Assembly (NCBI GenBank): GCA_032622095.1
Contig: CP136061.1
Coordinates: 168,585,107 to 168,649,106, forward strand
Reading direction: 5' to 3'
Length of the DNA: 64,000 bases
Source: Siphonodentalium dalli
Lineage: Eukaryota; Mollusca; Scaphopoda; Gadilida; Siphonodentaliidae
The notes under the pieces: generated by a model
What the model was told of the DNA's origin: nothing
What the model saw: only the letters and a program-made list of their open reading frames with translations
Databases searched by the model: none
Program-made: the position numbers and the translations under genes
Shown here: piece after piece, positions 6,401-42,660 of the stretch
Position numbering within the stretch: position 1 is the stretch's first letter
How the letters are laid out: each line of letters begins with the position of its first letter

Positions 6401-8200
6401 TTTTTTTGCGTTACTGCATAAAACAACAGATGGTGATTCTGTTATTTAATGTTTCGTGTGGCCAAAACTGTTGCAAGGCTCTCTGAAAATATTGGTGAAA
6501 ATTCAAAAGGACATGTTAAGGAGCACTGCACATTCAAGACTATCACAATATATTAATGATAGCAATATGTTAGTATTGAACATTACAACATCACTTCGTA
6601 CCGCATCGAGTGCATGATTATTTGTAATGGTCAATGACCATCCTCTATTATTACCAGTTGTCTACATATTGTTAATTCTTTACTTACTTAACGTCCCAAA
6701 ATGACACCAAATGTGTCAAACAATAGTCAAATGTGCATTGGAGATCAATGCACGATACACGATTAGGCAAATTAAACTATTTAAGTCATTCTCGGAATTT
6801 CACTAAGTGTTTTTAATTTTTGGTAGGTTTGTCTTTCTCCAAATATTTTATATAAAGTTCCTGATAATTGTTAATTTAAACCAAACAACCTAAACATTCA
6901 ACAAATTCAAATTTCCATCAAGTATTAATCCTGGCGTCACACCTGTGTCATAGCTAAGGGTGTGACATTTGGAATCTGATGTAGGATACCACCAAACCAA
7001 TGGAAAGACACGGCTTACCCGCCCTTACGGAGCTGATCAACAGTTTATGGAAGTTAATTTGAGACAATCACGTCAAAGCTTTATCTGAAAAAAATGTTGT
7101 CTTACCACCATCACTCAAACAGAACATATCGACGTCTAATATAAACACACAATCTAAACAATATATCGCTTCAAACTGCCGTATGATACATTTTGACCGA
7201 CTTTCGTATTCATTGTTCGCAGCGTGTTGGCATTAAAATTAGCCGTCATATTGGGCGTCATCTTGGATTTTGGTTGTCTACTAAGACCAGATGTGGATGC
7301 AAATTTTACATTTTATGTTTCTTCGTTGTATTCAACACAAAGTAATTCCGAACGATTTGCTTAATTCTTTGCATTCTGGACTATAGTCACAAGTGCCGCC
7401 ATTATGAGGACGTTTGTGACTGGGTGTTGATTAAGTTTTTGTTTACTAATTCTCCAACTGATAAGATAGACTAATGGTGAAACTACTGCACCCTATGAGA
7501 TATCGTCTAGTCACTTCAATGATATACAATATGCCACAGGGGACGTTCCCTTTTAGTTCGTTCGTATGTGCGTTCGCTAAGTGGTACAATTAAAATTGGA
7601 CGCCATATTGGACGCCATTTTGTTGTATCAAACTCTTCTAATAGTGAATATGGATGGAAATTCATACCTGTCACTTCGTATGTGTGTTGTACACTAAATA
7701 AAACAACATACTGCGCCTAATGCTATCACTCGTGGTTCCAATCCCAGTCGATAACTTTATTTCGAATTTTATGACATTGGATGGAGGGATACAGTTCTAC
7801 CTATTAGCTTACCAATTGAAAAGATATATTAATGGTCAAATTAATGTTTGATATGAAATGTTATTCTATGTCGTCACTACCATAATATAGATTTTACCAC
7901 TGGGGACGTTCCTTTTCTGGATTTTTCGTATGTCGCTCCACAGAGTCTTAAAATAAAAGCTGAATGCCATATTGGACGCCATCTTGGATTTTGATACTCT
8001 TCTAATGGTGAATATGGTTGGAAATTTGCATTTTACATTTGTTATACATGTGTGTTCTACACGAAATAAAAGGAAATACTACGCACTATTCTATCATTTT
8101 GGGATCCAATCCCAGGCGATGGCTATACTCAGCATTTTATGACATTGGGGGAGGGGTAAGTTTTCTTCAATTTATTACAATATTAGTAGGGATAGGGTAA
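3432..8200. mobile_element. large inverted-repeat element 1, non-coding, ~4.8 kb
   Basis: The left arm (about 3432-4500) and the right arm (about 7080-8200) are diverged reverse complements. Matching landmarks are GACATACGAAAAATCC with GGAACGTCCC on the left and GGACGTTCC with TTTTTCGTATGTC on the right; AATGTCATAAAATTCGAA and its complement TTCGAATTTTATGACATT; and AATATGGCGGCCAA with its complement. Each arm is itself tandem: landmarks recur at 3448 and 3815 on the left and at about 7203, 7562 and 7926 on the right, a period of about 360-366 bp. The left edge abuts the end of composite repeat A. I found no clear target duplication and no transposase; the middle (4500-7080) has only short chance reading frames. 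Probably a non-autonomous foldback-type transposon. Confidence 0.75.
4500..7080. other. non-coding centre of inverted-repeat element 1
   Basis: About 2.6 kb between the two arms. It is AT-rich and no reading frame longer than about 60 codons looks coding. No domain, splice pattern or internal repeat was recognised. Confidence 0.5.
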
Positions 8201-8686
8201 TAAAGTTAATACCTCCGGGTAGAAAATACTCCATTCTTTCCAAACATATATGACAAGATAGGCTCAATCCAGCGTGCTAGTTTTGTACAGAGTTGACGGG
8301 CGACAGTTTCTCTGAATCATCATGATTTTTTGACGCATAACGTTACGCATAACGTCGTGAAATCTCAAACAAACCAGAAAAAATAAGAACGTTCCAATCT
8401 AGTATCACCATGTACCACATAATAACAAATAAAACGTTCTGTTTTTTGGTGATATGCTTAACTTTTAACCAATTGTGTATAGCTGGCCAACCGCTGAAAA
8501 CAGGCTAATTTTTCGGTAGGGTACCTCCACAAATAGTCTTACCATACATAGCTGCCACCAATTCCGGCAAGGCCAAGAATCATTTTTATAAATGATATAT
8601 ATTTACCTTCCATAAAAGGTTGGTTTCAACTTGTTCTACCGAGGGTAGGGGTATCCGACCACTTTTGGCGTTTGGCCGCTCTTCTA
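8201..8686. other. spacer between two large elements, nothing recognised
   Basis: About 480 bp with no gene. It holds a short direct repeat of GCATAACGTTACGCATAACG type at about 8333-8353 and two loosely inverted GGTAGGGTACC / ACCGAGGGTAGGGG words near 8515 and 8638. The meaning is unknown. Confidence 0.4.
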
Positions 8687-9904
8687 TAATTACAATTAAC
8701 CCCACGCAGTCGGATTTCTAGAGCACGAGGTCAGCACGGGTCCCGACATATTCGTCGTGATTTCATATAAATTGTCATGTTTACCTAATTTCGAGGTGCC
8801 TGGACACTATACAGATATATCCCTGCACATTAGTTGATGCTTAGGTGTAGACAGTGTGACTGCTGGTAATGGAAAACCACCCCACGCAGTTGAAATTTGG
8901 GAAAAGTAGGTCATCACGGACTTCAATACTTCTATGTACAAACCGAACATTATCGCTATTATGGCCCGATTTTAGGTCTCCAGGACACTCCACACGCATA
9001 ACCCACGAACATGATAGGTATGTCATTGTGGTCAACACGTCAGCCCTAATTACAATTTAACCCCACGCAACCTGGATTTCTAGAGAACGCTGTCAGCACG
9101 TGTCCCGACATATTTGTCGTGATTTCATTTAAATGTCATTTTTACCTAAATTCAAGGTGCCAGGACACTCTATAGAGATATCCCTCCACATTAGTTGATG
9201 CATATATGTGTAGACATTGTGACTGCTGGTAATGGAAAACCACCCCACGCAGTTGAAATTTGGGAAAAGTAGGTCATCACGGACTTCAATACTTCTATGT
9301 ACTAACCAAACATTATCGCTATTATGTCCCGATTTTAGGGCTCCACGACACTCCACACGCATAATCCACGAACATGATAGGTATGTTATTGTGGTCAACA
9401 TGTCGGCCCTAATTACAATTTAAACCCATGCAGCCGGATTTCTAGAGAACAAGGTCGGTCAGCACGGTTCCCGACATATTCGTCGTGATTTCATATAAAT
9501 GTCATTTTTACCTAATTTCGAGGTGCCAGGACAATCTAAAGAGATATCCCTCCACATTAGTTGATGCATATGTGTAGTCATTGTGACCGTTGGTAATGGA
9601 AAACCATCCCACGCAGTTGAAATTTGGGAAAAGTAGGTCATCACGGACTTCAATACTTCTATGTACAAACCGAACATTATCACTATTATGGCCCGATTTT
9701 AGGTCTCCAGGACACTCCACACTCATAACACACGAACATGATAGGTATGTGCTTGTGGTCAACACATCAGCCCTAATTACAATTTAACTCCACGCAGCCG
9801 GATTTCTAGAGAATGAGGTCAGCACGGGTCCTGACATATTCGTCGTGATTTCATATAAATTGTCATTATTACCTAATTTCGAGGTGCCAGGAAACTCTAC
9901 AGAG
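8687..9904 (+). repeat. left array of the 363-bp repeat, about 3.35 units
   Basis: The landmark GGATTTCTAGAG recurs at about 8713, 9074, 9436 and 9800 (spacing 361-364). Each unit also contains GGAAAACCACCCCACGCAG and AACATGATAGGTATGT. The array stops inside a unit just after CTCTACAGAG at 9904, where the core begins. Reading frames of 60-90 codons on both strands recur once per unit; they simply follow the repeat. Confidence 0.9.
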
Positions 9905-12670
9905 CCAGTCCAAGGACATCTCCAGGATAGGCCGGGGCACAGTGCAGACCTCGTCCCCGATGATGACACGGGGGATGAACTTCTGCCCCATGCGGTCGGG
10001 CGTTCAGTCATTCTGACCACTCCATCGGAAGAAGCTGTGGTATGTCTGGGCTTTGACCCCACGTCCCCGCATTTGTTTGGCTAGGCGATGGGTGAGGGTA
10101 AACCGAGGGGGTCTCTTACCCGGAAGAGCTCGATCGCTCTTGTGGTCTTGCCACTGCCCCCTCCACCATTAAGGTAGGTCAGCCGGTGCCGGGTCAGTTC
10201 GTCGTTGTAGCTGGGTGCCGTTGATTCGGCCATCGGTTTGGCTTGGCTACAGTATTCTGGCTTGGAGAAGTACACGGCATGTTCCTGCGGCATGTACAAC
10301 TGCTCCCCTTTGTCACGCCACTGAGCGGCATGAACCCTGTCTTGGGCCGGTGGCCTGAGTGTTAGCTCGAAGTGATACCTGAGACAGTTGCAGCAGTTTC
10401 CTGGGAGATGCTCCTCCTGCTCCACCGTCACGCTTCTGCAACGCGGTCTTCTGGAAGTAAATGCTATCAGTGGCCACCCAGACAGCCTCATCGGGTTCAA
10501 ATCTTGCCAGCATATCGAGGAGGTTGATGTGGGCATATGTCAGCATTGAGGCCCTCAGGTAGGTGTACTGGGGCTGCGAGCCATCGTAGTATGTGAGAAT
10601 GTGGCCCAAGGGACACCGTTGGGGTGCGCCAACCAGACTTCCGCTTTTGCGGGTGTCACTTACCAAGAAGTCAAGTTCTCCCTGGTCGACCACAAGCCTC
10701 CGTGTTAGTTTTTGGCCGTCGGCCTTGCTGCCCTGGGTGAACTTGCCTATGATGCTGCAGCCTTGATTACGATCTTCAGGGAGACCTCGGTTTGTTTCTC
10801 AAAGTTGATGATGGCCTCACGGACCATTCAGGCTCTTCAGGAGACCTGACTCAACCAGGAACGTCAGCAGGGGTGTGGAGGCCCAGCCCTGCTCTGCGAA
10901 ATTCTTTCCGAACCAGGTGGGGATGACGGGATGACAGTTAGGGGCGAACTCCCATTCCTGGACCTCGGCGAAACTGGTGCCGATATCTTGGGAGAGGGGG
11001 CCGTTGATTGCGACCCGGGTCATGCGGTGGCTGGGGTGCCCGAATCTGTCAAAATATGGCTTGGCCTCACCGTGATCTTGGAAGCTGGCTTGGTAGCAGG
11101 CTTTCATGTCAATGCTGACGACGTCTGTTGTATCGTAGCCCATCGCATTCCAGAGGCCTCCATGACCATGCTCGACACAGGCTTTCTGAATGTCATCTCC
11201 GAGGTTAGCCAGGGTCGGTTTCCAGCCGTTGTGGTCTTTGGCCATGATACTGGCTGCATGGTTCACCCCGAAGACTCGGTCTGCGGAGCGACTCATCGCC
11301 CAGATCTCTACAGACTTTCTGGAGGTTTTGGTGAGTCTCCTGTGTCCTGTAGGTGCGGCCGTCATGGAGCACAAACTGGTCGACATTGAGCTGCCTGTCT
11401 TGGCCCCCCAGCAGCCAGACTGCAATCGGTTCATCTTGGGTTGCCCCTCTGATTGTTTGCCAGACGTCGCCTTCATAGAAGTGGACCTCCCTGGATTGTG
11501 GGAAGTGCAGGTCTTTGGACATGCATGGCCTTTGTGGCAGATGAGCTCCACTTTACCTCTGATCCCGTTGCCCCCAAGCTGGTATTTCCCGCTGGTGTAC
11601 ATGTCCTCGCCAGCTATGTCCCTGATAATGATCGCTCGCTTCAGTATCTTCTCCAAGTCTGCAACGTCCTCGAGTGTGGCACCTGTTTGATGAACTCGCT
11701 TCTCCCACTCCTCAATTTTCTTTCTCCTCGTGGGCGTAAGTCCCTGCCCTCTCAGAGCACCTTCAAAATGTTCCACCACTCTCTGGGCAACACAGTTGAG
11801 GTCGCCGTCCATCATTGGAGCTAGGTTTGCAGGGTCTGGGTCTCTGAGGTGGTAGATGCCATAGACAGCCGTGGTGACTGGGTAGGCGTTCTGGTAAAAC
11901 ACCTGATCGATTCCGCTCAATGCACCAGGCTTCGTGTCTTGAGTGATTTCAACAATATCTTGGCCCTTCTTCCCCTCTGTTCTGACCGGGTCGAACTTAT
12001 CCTCGACGACCCACCGTCGTTACGCTCACGCAAGTACTTGATTCTTAGGACGAACTCGCCCTCTGATATAGTCGTGAGGAGCTGTTCTGCCCTCTCATTC
12101 GTCATGCAGGCATTTCTGACCCCCGTGGGGACCATTGACATCGTTGGCGTTGACTCCCTCTACTCTCCATGTGGAATAGACTGCGGCTGCGCCGTAGACT
12201 TTAAACTTGTCTTTGGCATCGTTCATCTTGCCAACCCACGGTTCGTCGGCCGGTAACCTCACTGGGTGTGGCACCTGGTGGATATCGAGGTCAAATTTTC
12301 CCCTCTCCCTCAGTTTTCTGAGAACCAGCGGACCGCAGGACATCCCATCGGCTCTTCCTTATACCACCGTGCCTCAACAGTTCTCTTCTCCTGGTTGGTC
12401 TCTTCTCGAGCGCTTTCGCGCGCAGAGACGCTGTAACCTGGCGTCGATCTGTTTAATCTCGCTGTCTCTCTGACTGTGCTTGTGTGGGTTGCCCCAATCC
12501 CCAAGAATGGTCGGGAACCTGCCTGTCTTCTGCGCCCGCCGCAAACGTGATTTTAGCTCCGCACCACGGTGAGATAAAATTGCCTTGATCAAATCAATCT
12601 TTCGAAGTGAGGAATACCCCGTCAAACCAAGATCTTTGGCTTGGGCTCAAAGCTCGCGTACAGTAGACAT
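9905..12670 (-). pseudogene. decayed SAP-like / family B DNA polymerase / SF1 helicase fusion, truncated
   Basis: The reading begins at an ATG at 12670-12668, only 36 bp after the stop of an upstream fragment. The head (residues about 8-30, with GLTGYSSLRKIDLIKA) resembles a SAP or Rho-N nucleic-acid-binding fold. Polymerase motif A is visible at about 11115 (SIDMKACYQASF, with YQ where most relatives have YP) and motif C at about 10460 (VATDSIYF). A conventional motif B was not recognised. A Walker A loop (GGGGSGKTT) follows at about 10160, then helicase motif Ia-like and Walker B-like words (TYHSFFRW and a VII.DE pattern) at about 9940-10040. Motifs III-VI are absent because the array begins at 9904. 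Breaks: in-frame TGA at 12649-12647, and frame changes near 12400, 12350, 12120, 12020, 11530, 11320, 10815, 10700, 10480 and 10080. The core is much richer in G+C than its flanks, suggesting foreign origin. From memory, similar polymerase-helicase proteins are multicopy in some invertebrates and arbuscular fungi. Confidence 0.8.
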
Positions 12671-12706
12671 GTCCTGAATAGGTATACCAATTATAATCGT
12701 ATCTCT

Positions 12707-12803
12707 CTAATAGAAAAATTCAATAGCCACCAGCCGAGCAAATTCCTTATCCATAGCCTCCAACCGAGCAAATTCCTTTTCCGCAGCCCTTTTCTCTCTG
12801 TTA
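12707..12803 (-). pseudogene. C-terminal remnant of an upstream coiled-coil reading frame
   Basis: On the minus strand an open frame enters from the right-hand repeat and ends at a TAG (12709-12707), 36 bp before the ATG of the polymerase gene. Its last ~30 residues are charged and heptad-like, with two copies of KEFARLEA / KEFARLVA encoded by an imperfect direct repeat around 12730-12775. It is cut at the core edge, so only a C-terminus would remain. Tight head-to-tail spacing with the next gene suggests a compact viral- or plasmid-like gene order. It could also be a chance frame. Confidence 0.4.
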
Positions 12804-14553
12804 TGTAGAGTATCCTGGCACCTCGAAATTAGGTAAAACTGACAATTTATATGAAATCACGACGAATATGTCGGGACTCGTGCTGACCTCGGGCTGAATA
12901 AATCCGGCTGCTTGGGGTTATATTGTAATTAGAACTGATGTGATGACCACAATGACAAACTTACCATGTTTGTGGGTTATACGGGTGGAGTATCCTGGAG
13001 CCCTAAAATCTGGACATAACAGCGATAATGTTCGGTTTGTACATAGAGGTATTGAAGTCCGTGATGACCTAATTTTGCCAAATTTCAACTGCGTGGGGTG
13101 GTTTTCCATTACCAGCTGTCACCTTGTCTACAAATATCCTTCAACTAATGAGGAGGGGCATCTGTATATAGTGTCCTGGCACCTTGAAATTACGTAAAAC
13201 TGACAATGTATATAAAATCACGACGAATATGTCGGGACTCGTTCTGGCCTCGAACTGAAGAAATCCGGCTGTGTGGGGTTATATAAGGATTAACTGTCAT
13301 GTGAACTGTTTTTATGGAGATGTAACGGTGAGGTAAGTGGACATAACTTGTGTAAAACCCGAAGGGTTTTACATACAAGTTATGTCCACTTACCTCACCG
13401 TTACATCTCCATAAAAATAGTCCACATGACAGTTAATCCTTATATTTATATACATTTAGCGAAAAAGCCACTTTTGTAAATATATTTAAATCGAAAAGTG
13501 TATCGTGACAAGATCAGCCCAAAATACCCAATAGCACCCTTGGCAAAAGTTAATAGGAACAATTTCTCTTCATGTTGAAACCCGATGATGTATTAAGTCA
13601 ATCCTGCGCGAGTCAAAATGCGCCCAAAGCATTACGCGTTCGTCTTTCCAAACCTAATGACGTATCGATGGTGTAATTAGCTTGGTGTTATGAGGCGTTA
13701 CGCATTCACCGAGAAATAACTGCAACTAGCCACGTGGGCGCCGACCAATCAGAATGCTGGATTTAGTGATGACAACACTTAGTGTGTAAATATATTTTAA
13801 TTAGGACTGATGTGTTGAACACAATGACATACTAACATGTTTATGGGTTATGCCTGTGGAGTGTCATGGAGCCCTAACATCGGGACATAATAGCGATAAG
13901 GTTCGGTTTGTACATAGAGCTATTGAAGTCCGTGTTGACCTACTTTTGCCAAATTTCAACTGCTTGGGGTGGTTTTCCATTACCAGTGGTCACCCTGTCT
14001 ACAAATATCCTTCAACAAAAGTGGAGGGAAATCTCTATAGAGTGTCATGGTACCTCGAAATTAGGTAAAACTGACAATCTATATGAAATCATGACGATTA
14101 TGTCGGGACTCGTGCTGACCTCGAGCTGAAGAAATCCGGCTGCGTGGGGTTATATTGTAATTAGTACTGATGTGGTGACCACGATGACATACTTACCATG
14201 TTTGTGGGTTATGCGTGTGGAGTGTCCTGGAGCCTAAAATCGGGACATAATAGCGATAATGTTCGGTTTGTACATAGTGGTAATGAAGTCCTTGATGACC
14301 TAATTTTGCCAAATTTCAACTGCGTGGGTGGTTTTCCGTTACCGGTGGTCACACTGTCTACAAATATCCTTCAAATAATGTGGAGGGATATCTCTGTAGA
14401 GTGTCCTTGCACCTCGAAATTAGGTATATATGACAATTTATATGAAATCACGACGAATATGTCGGGACACGTGCTGACCTCGTGCTCTAGAAATCCGACT
14501 GCGTGGGGTTAAATTGTAATTAGGGCTGATGTGTTGACCACAAGGACATACCT
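12804..14553 (-). repeat. right array of the 363-bp repeat, inverted, with a ~510-bp insertion
   Basis: The complement of the left-array unit, with AAATCCGGCTG/AAATCCGACTG landmarks at about 12900, 13262, 14130 and 14491. The spacings are 362, ~870 (362 plus an insertion) and 360. The inner edge (12804-12810, GTAGAG) lies at the same point of the unit (CTCTACA) as the inner edge of the left array. Units differ from the left array by roughly a tenth of positions as judged by eye. Confidence 0.88.
13281..13797. mobile_element. insertion with ~82-bp-arm palindrome inside the right array
   Basis: The repeat is interrupted after GGGGTTATAT (13284) and resumes at TTTTAATTAGG near 13797. The first third is a near-perfect palindrome, 13281-13445, centred at about 13363 on CCCGAAGGG; arms start ATATAAGGATTAACTG and end with the complement. 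The remainder (13446-13797) is unique sequence with several CpG-containing words and no reading frame. It is a foldback-type or MITE-like insertion; no clear target duplication was defined beyond AT-rich flanks. Confidence 0.75.
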
Positions 14554-14625
14554 ATAATTATACGATCTGATGGCGATTTATGATCGTGATCGCGGTACGT
14601 GGTTGGCTAACAGAATCGTACATCT

Positions 14626-40740: not shown

Positions 40741-42660
40741 GGGGGGGGGGGGGGGGGGGGGGGTGTACAAAATATTTTATTCGAGTCGATGAACCCACCA
40801 TCAAAGTTCAGAGTGATCAGATATTGATTTCTGAAATCTATTATTTTTCACTATGAAAANNNNNNNNNNNNNNNNNNNNNNNNNNNNNNNNNNNNNNNNN
40901 NNNNNNNNNNNNNNNNNNNNNNNNNNNNNNNNNNNNNNNNNNNNNNNNNNNNNNNNNNNAATCTTATGGTTTTATCGCTTGTTTTGCTAATTTCTCGCTG
41001 TTTCATTACTATATAAAGCAAAATAAGCGATAAAACCATAAGATTATTTTTTTGTCATGTAGGTGCTGGGTGGGGGGGGGGGATATCCTGACCTGGACAT
41101 TTCCCCCCCCCCCCCCCCACCCAAACCCTGACTCAAACAACTTGTTCTCAGAAGAAGTCAATTTCTCGCTGTTTCATGACTATATAAAGCAAAACGAGCG
41201 AAAAAACCATAAAATTATTTTTTTGTCATGTAGGTGCTGGGTGGGGGGGGGAAGATATCCTGACCTGGACATCTTCCCCCCCCACCCAAACCCTGACTCA
41301 AACAACTTGTTCTCAGAAGAAGTTAATTTCTCGCTGTTTCATGACTATATAAAGCAAAACAAGCGATAAAACCATAAGATTATTTTTTTGTCATGTAGGT
41401 GCTGGGTGCGGGGGGGGGGGGGGGGGGGGGGGGTGGAGATATCCTATCCTGGACATTTCCCCCCCCCACCCCAAACCCTGACTCAAACAACTTGTTCTCA
41501 GAAGAAGTTAATTTCTCGCTGTTTCATGACTATATAAAGCAAAACGAGCGATAAAACCATAAGATTATTTGTTTGTCATGTAGGTGCTGGGTGTGGGGGG
41601 GGGGGGGGAAAGATATCCTGACCTGGACATCTTCCCCCCCCCCACCCAAACCCTGACTCAAACAACTTGTTCTCAGAAGAAGTCAATTTCTCGCTGTTTC
41701 ATGACTATATAAAGCAAAACGAGCGATAAAACCATAAAATTATTTTTTTGTCATGTAGGTGCTGGGTGGGGGGGGGAAGATATCCTGACCTGGACATCTT
41801 CCCCCCCACCCAAACCCTGACTCAAACAACTTGTTCTCAGAAGAAGTTAATTTCTGGCTGTTTCATGACTATATAAAGCAAAACAAGCGATAAAACCATA
41901 AGCCTGGACGTTTGAAAGAAAAGAAAAAAATTGAATTAAAAAAAAACATTTTTCTGGTCATTTCATGAACAGACAATCAAATTCGTGAAAAAACTAATTT
42001 TGTCACTTTTTATTTTTAAATAATCTCCAAAAACATTTTTCTGGCCATTTCAGAACCAAACGATATCATATGAGTGAAATTATTTTTTAGCCTGACCTGG
42101 ACATCTTCCCCCCCCCCACCCAAACCCTGACTCAAACAACTTGTTCTCAGAAGAAGTCAATTTCTCGCTGTTTCATGACTATATAAAGCAAAACGAGTGA
42201 TAAAACCATAAAATTATTTTTTTGTCATGTAGGTGCTGGGTGGGGGGGAAGATATCCTGACCTGGACATCTTCCCCCCCACCCAAACCCTGACTCAAACA
42301 ACTTGTTCTCAGAAGAAGTTAATTTCTCGCTGTTTCATGACTATATAAAGCAAAACAAGCGATAAAACCATAAGCCTGGACGTTTGAAAGAAAAGAAAAA
42401 AATTGAATTAAAAAAAAACATTTTTCTGGTCATTTCATGAACAGACAATCAAATTCGTGAAAAAACTAATTTTGTCACTTTTTATTTTTAAATAATCTCC
42501 AAAAACATTTTTCTGGCCATTTCAGAACCAAACGATATCATATGAGTGAAATTATTTTTTAGTCGTATATGGGGGGGGGGGGGAAGATATCCAGGGTGGG
42601 GGGAAGATATCCTAGGACATCTTCCCCCGCGGGGGAAGATATCCTGGGGGGGAAGATGAC
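40741..42660. repeat. satellite of 165-185-bp monomers with facing poly-G and poly-C tracts
   Basis: AGGTGCTGGG recurs at 41061, 41232, 41397, 41582, 41757 and 42231. Each monomer has a G run (7-20), then ATATCCTGACCTGGACAT, then a C run (6-14), then CCCAAACCCTGACTCAAAC and TTTCTCGCTGTTTCATGA. A 470-bp higher-order unit carrying an extra block starting AGCCTGGACGTTTGAAAG occurs at about 41902 and 42373. G and C runs can pair into a hairpin; the G runs could form quadruplexes. A 23-base G run precedes the array at 40741. Confidence 0.9.
40860..40959. other. assembly gap of 100 N
   Basis: Exactly 100 N within the G/C-run satellite. The round number suggests a gap of unknown size, so the array may be longer than shown. 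Confidence 0.98.

Follow-up and report, generated by a model that had tools for sequence, protein, structure and literature searches.

Inverted tandem-repeat arms around a broken polymerase-helicase gene in Siphonodentalium dalli: a probable foldback-type transposon with a polinton-like middle

The presence of a polymerase-helicase core between two inverted arrays of one repeat unit on contig CP136061.1 of Siphonodentalium dalli raises the question as to whether arms and core make up a single mobile element and, if so, of which kind. A sequence-only reading had noted this arrangement in the window, by which we mean the whole 64,000-nucleotide stretch that was analysed, and both the inverted arms and the core are confirmed here. 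We consider the locus to be, somewhat more likely than not, a decayed foldback-type DNA transposon that carries in its middle part of a polinton-like element's replication gene.

Arms and core of the window element

The left arm (8687..9904, plus strand) consists of 3.35 tandem units of approximately 363 bp, for which TRF gave a period of 364 with 3.4 copies and 90% matches. The right arm is inverted and falls into an inner part of 1.33 units (12804..13284, minus strand) and an outer part of 2.1 units (13791..14558, minus strand), split by a 506-bp insertion (13285..13790) that sits between unit positions 286 and 290. This gives 3.35 and 3.44 units, in agreement with the earlier estimate of about 3.4 on each side. 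Pairs drawn from opposite arms are 78-95% complementary, the long ones 85-92%, and the inner ends of the arms lie at unit positions 46 and 44; the matching unit numbers and this near-equal inner position identify the arms as a true inverted pair. As a background, no inverted pairs of 150 bp or more were found in ten 6-kb tiles of bases 1-60000, tiles that separate the two arms from each other.

The insertion holds a hairpin (13281-13445) with 71-bp arms that are 97% complementary and TATA-rich flanks, and resembles a small snap-back element. Immediately to the left of the left arm, at 7204-8148, degenerate direct repeats are spaced at 357-368 bp, near the period of the arm unit, and gave no blastn match to the 363-bp unit. 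Elsewhere in the window a dense array with long G/C runs (40988-42562) has periods of 165-175 bp and 472 bp, and two copies of its 472-bp unit are 99% alike.

At the outer borders of the element CTATAATTA forms a perfect 9-base direct repeat (left copy 8684..8692 and right copy 14552..14560, both plus strand) which we regard as a candidate target-site duplication, the match having been noticed before the test was chosen and overlapping the arm match. Of 4000 pairs of 22-base windows drawn at random from these 64 kb, 5 had at least 9 bases in common. At their outer ends the arms are inexact inverted repeats whose starts lie 36 unit positions apart, and this locus is the only one at which the 363-bp family is known.

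Between the arms the GC content rises to 55% (10001-12000) compared with 34-41% in tiles outside the element. Here a minus-strand match running from 12295 to 9902 aligns at 57% identity with residues 23-830 of an intact relative (P0121, 1160 residues), and marks a broken fragment of a pPolB-SF1 helicase gene (9902..12295, minus strand; residues ~23-830 of 1160) which lacks the C-terminal half of the helicase and the HNH-like end. The fragment contains stops and frame changes and is truncated at both arm edges, so that the core is no unbroken self-replication gene, which weakens the earlier interpretation. Its open reading frame pieces, all on the minus strand, include one with the helicase Walker A motif (GGGGSGKTT; 10081..10539), one with polymerase motif C (ATDS; 10313..10798) and a 400-aa piece (10817..12019) with LNCVAQ, which may hold a vOTU cysteine, together with polymerase motif A (SIDMKACY); this last piece has 251 homologues with E no higher than 0.01. 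A Rho_N (SAP-like) domain (Pfam E 1.6e-6) lies in a further piece upstream of the polymerase gene (12374..12646, minus strand). The window pieces gave no polymerase or helicase match in Pfam, PHROGs or the PDB sequences, one of these searches being made with a single piece; such matches came from relatives and from a fold model. The Pfam DNA_pol_B_2 profile, put forward earlier as a check, matched neither the six window pieces nor the relatives scanned, and it is the motifs together with the predicted fold of a relative that support the family B polymerase claimed for the core.

At the left junction (9902..9909) the coding match stops at residue ~830 (9902) and the match to the arm unit reaches 9903. 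On the other side a 5' region common to other core copies (12296..12803, minus strand) carries the homology approximately 508 bp before the coding match, to ~12803, where it ends at the start of the right arm; several other core copies have a further ~270-490 bases in common beyond the corresponding point. Fuller copies extend past the truncation points of the window core in both directions.

One reading of the locus is that of chance neighbours, with an inverted satellite happening to enclose a dead polymerase-helicase copy. The window does contain many other tandem arrays, and the 363-bp unit was found at 0 of 29 other core loci in fetched flanks of about 1.5 kb. However, the arms are equal in unit number and inner position, the core is truncated at both of their edges, a candidate 9-bp duplication lies at the outer borders and a second repeat family, whose ends are defined, follows the same plan, all of which makes chance association very unlikely. 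The equal size of the arms with their nearly identical inner position, and a core cut off on both sides while other copies continue, speak for the foldback reading.

The core protein and its polinton-like parent

The core protein is of the published 'Tlr1-like helicase' (pPolB-S1H) kind, a fusion already described in PMC11071308. Both parts of the fusion are found, namely a predicted protein-primed family B polymerase palm and a C-terminal superfamily 1 helicase. The polymerase identity draws on the motifs and on the fold predicted for a relative, modelled from 94 sequences with a pLDDT of 85.8; a model built on 20 close sequences had reached a poor pLDDT of 53. The described fusions have no 3'-5' exonuclease domain, and the fold alignment to phi29 polymerase spans phi29 55-500, a start which we take to lie inside the phi29 exonuclease domain. 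C200 and H282 are invariant in 13 sequences and may belong to a vOTU domain, in a region barely covered by fold matches, and the fold lists reported no match for the N-terminal part, a part barely probed. HNH matches in relatives fell below the cut-off (E 0.02-0.4; PacI E 0.22).

Among named records, those of Elysia, of a coral and a shark, of clam-symbiont bins and of the fungi Gigaspora, Diversispora and Rhizophagus contain relatives with the pPolB-S1H-HNH order, and a scan of the viral_contigs, genome_contigs and phages sequence sets found none. PMC11071308 lists polinton-like viruses, transpovirons and Tlr1 as holders of the fusion, and its main text does not use the words metazoa, mollusc or invertebrate.

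In transpovirons, which are reported to use a core of the pPolB-S1H kind, the terminal inverted repeats measure 380-520 nt and a tandem repeat lies centrally (PMC7031253), and the window element might accordingly be a linear replicon, similar to a transpoviron or a plasmid, that became integrated and has the arm repeats as its ends. Among viral folds the relative P0122 matched H6WBE3 best (E 3.8e-29 across 1101 columns, TM only 0.21-0.23), which points the same way. Parent copies, however, carry an rve integrase, the armed copies are chromosomal and flanked by target-site duplications and the window core is broken, and we hold a linear replicon to be highly improbable here, although the parent itself might be one.

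Many copies of the parent are present in the 2.23-Gb host assembly, where at least 74 matches to P0122 were found with 40 of 750 candidates scored, genome counts of the core being lower bounds. In the loci of relatives an rve integrase gene (Pfam rve E 1.4e-7; its 32.1 bits fall slightly short of the 32.6 cut-off) lies convergent to the polymerase-helicase gene, and it adjoins the core in at least 11 of 30 loci, most flanks having been read short; nine were found with short flanks and two more among seven loci re-read as 9-10 kb stretches, the other five of which gave no integrase match. The earlier remark that no integrase was seen thus holds for the window, which gave no rve match, but not for the relatives of its core.

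Downstream of the integrase L036/L043 and L044 have further coding-looking sequence in common, a stretch that may have capsid-like features; seven open reading frame pieces from this part of L036/L043 gave no significant Pfam match. Several of the loci contain other features nearby. L044 has an array of a 462-bp unit in 3.3 copies (1377-2916) downstream of the integrase, L036 has a 488-aa open frame (644-2110) upstream of its core copy with features presumably of a LINE-type reverse transcriptase, and in L035 a 356-bp array (2 x ~176 bp; 7674-8637) lies about 2 kb upstream of the core copy on one side only.

A sister family with a 390-bp unit

Sequence of a second unit, of approximately 390 bp, was found in the fetched flanks of 12 of the 30 core loci (in L005 only ~100 bases), and it is unrelated to the 363-bp unit, matches between the two ending at 13-14 bases. 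Neither unit, nor the 390-family terminus described below, occurs in the 10-kb stretches of the fuller copies L034 and L036; L043 and L044 were checked for tandem arrays and stood outside the searches for the 390-bp unit and terminus. The core does therefore occur elsewhere with unrelated ends, an outcome that the sequence-only reading had itself set beforehand as counting against it.

Arms of the 390-bp unit are inverted on both sides in L032, L038/L041 and L040. In L032 they enclose core residues 18 to ~845, and in L038 with L041, and in L040, core residues ~257-277 to 1159 together with the integrase. In L039 the arms flanking the core differ, one being long and the opposite one short, and L031 and L033, near-copies of L032, have the array on one side only in the 9 kb read. 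The right ends of the armed copies L031 and L032 abut an array of ~352-362 bp (7887-9000 and 7866-9000 respectively).

The ends of the 390 family read AGCAGCGTGAATT..GTTACTTATTCC, also written AGCAGCGTG. Its terminus AGCAGCGTGAATTNNGTTACTTATTCC occurs in 280 exact copies in the genome, 146 forward and 134 reverse, with a reversed control giving 0 in either direction, and the first 100 of these places include 18 plus-minus pairs less than 30 kb apart and 0 minus-plus pairs. We scored target-site duplications in 18 elements, a different set from the 18 terminus pairs, and found 8 perfect 9-bp duplications, 4 matching at 8 of 9 bases, 1 perfect 8-bp duplication, 1 matching at 7 of 8 and 4 elements with none; those of G7, L066 and L067 were read by eye, and L032 and C2:202 Mb have the same flanks and are not independent counts, likely as parts of a larger duplication. 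The outer flanks of L067 (C2:228.78 Mb) are inverted rather than direct repeats (GAATTTGACA / TGTCAAATTC), and 390-bp arrays also lie inside it.

Nine of the 18 terminus pairs carry pieces of the gene set, seven of them as read (L004, L039/L042, L040, L045, L050, L065 and L067) and two by the places of genome matches (C1:112 Mb and C3:29 Mb). A further five (L046-L049 and L066) have arms without a gene-set match, so that the set is carried by 9 of the 14 known interiors. At L004, C1:112 Mb, C3:29 Mb, G15 and G7 the gene set lies in armed units 8-13 kb long that are flanked by perfect 9-bp duplications. L038 and L039 lie 54 Mb apart and have cores that are 99.7% alike over 5.5 kb with different 9-bp duplications, which argues for recent movement; G7 and G15 are likewise 99.7% alike over 5.5 kb. 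With its inverted arms, defined ends and 9-bp duplications, including those of polymerase-helicase carriers, the sister family establishes that arms and core are a real mobile plan.

What is in dispute is whether the arms belong to the genes. The tandem-unit arms could be the native ends of a Tlr1-like self-synthesising lineage with pPolB-S1H-HNH and an rve integrase, whose known copies are internal-deletion derivatives, whose arms turn over fast enough for the 363-bp and 390-bp families to be two of its branches and whose own integrase joins the target. This is a serious rival because all nine core-bearing pairs, half of the 18, have the same gene set, and free capture by a foldback element would predict varied cargo, although the interiors were compared with that gene set only. 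The 390-type copies together also span residues 18-1160, the integrase and the downstream sequence, the armed units with perfect duplications described above carry the set, and in Tetrahymena the Tlr1 element has inverted repeats that are long and accompanied by tandem repeats. Against native ends, each armed copy read is truncated at the arm edge and at differing residues (~257-277 in the G type, ~845 in L031-L033 and ~830 in the window), the G type also ends within coding-looking sequence that runs on in L043 and L044, the fuller L034 and L036 have no 390-family terminus in their 10-kb stretches and Polintons make target duplications of 6 bp. We therefore find native ends possible but doubtful.

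A fuller version, in which an undescribed animal lineage of such elements has fast-evolving arms that serve as repeated binding or replication-start sites, the two unit families being branches and the copies being deletion derivatives that were mobilised in trans and duplicated 9 bp of the target, strikes us as improbable. The earlier interpretation is upheld in so far as the plan of arms and core is mobile, but the window core is broken, the fusion is published, the core has unrelated ends elsewhere and an integrase adjoins it in relatives.

It is the truncation of armed copies at differing residues and the absence of these ends from the 10-kb stretches of L034 and L036 that favour a foldback element holding polinton-like genes. 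The sister family, with its terminus, plus-minus pairs and 9-bp duplications, and the 5 of 18 pairs whose arms lack the gene set, point in the same direction. The uniform cargo stands against it, as do the overlap of the candidate duplication with the arm match, the inexact arm ends of the window element and the 4 of 18 sister elements without a direct duplication. The foldback element would have long terminal inverted repeats made up of tandem units and would duplicate 9 bp of its target site, and its variable middle would be a segment of a pPolB-SF1 helicase-HNH gene from an integrase-bearing polinton-like parent with many copies in the genome. A transposase acting in trans on the arms, for a foldback transposon expected to be of the Mutator or P type, may move the whole unit, unequal exchange or replication slippage may cause the tandem units to grow and shrink, and polinton-like pieces may have entered the middle through replication or repair and been truncated at the arm edges. 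We infer the trans-acting transposase, the capture and a 363-bp family behaving like the 390-bp one.

Comparison with known systems

The locus joins two kinds of element that are treated apart, foldback transposons, which often have no enzyme assigned to their movement, and polinton-like elements, which come with a polymerase of their own. Literature searches, judged by titles and the starts of abstracts, gave no account of foldback arms around a pPolB-S1H core. With many copies of defined ends in one genome, counting can decide between native arms and gene-holding traps, and the family is a good test case for the joint travel of arms and replication genes. The pPolB-S1H-HNH fusion is in addition placed in records of animals and mycorrhizal fungi.

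Mavericks/Polintons end in simple terminal repeats with a 6-bp duplication and encode capsid proteins and a packaging ATPase. The window element has the family B polymerase in common with them, as relatives of its core have the rve integrase, but its polymerase belongs to a fusion with a helicase and an HNH-like domain, its arms consist of tandem units and its candidate duplication is 9 bp. Helentrons are transposons of the rolling-circle type. Satellite-carrying Helentrons of oysters (PMC7492417) likewise place short satellite-like arrays on mobile elements in a mollusc, yet the element described there is a non-autonomous Helentron whereas here array pairs are inverted and target sites duplicated.

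The described Tlr1-like helicases (PMC11071308, PMC12721341) have the same order of polymerase palm and superfamily 1 helicase, followed in some members by a C-terminal HNH or GIY-YIG nuclease where the relatives here have an HNH-like end. The first Asp of their motif C is replaced, as it is here (ATDS), and a vOTU domain is described upstream, where we find an invariant Cys and His. Tlr1 has an rve integrase (PMC4642659), as is found near relatives of the window core. In contrast to these the window copy is truncated within the helicase, and its relatives are in animal and fungal records.

In overall plan the locus resembles the foldback transposons Tetris, FB and Galileo, which have the same terminal inverted repeats with internal tandem repeats and a variable middle and make duplications of 8-10 bp, a range into which the 9-bp candidate of the window would fall; inverted arms with internal tandem repeats are found both in the window and in the sister family. 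Tetris of Drosophila virilis (PMC4079207) carries tandem repeats of ~220 bp in its arms with 8-10 bp duplications, compared with units of 363 and 390 bp here, and where the three complete Tetris copies described have no conserved ORF the middle here holds polinton-like genes.
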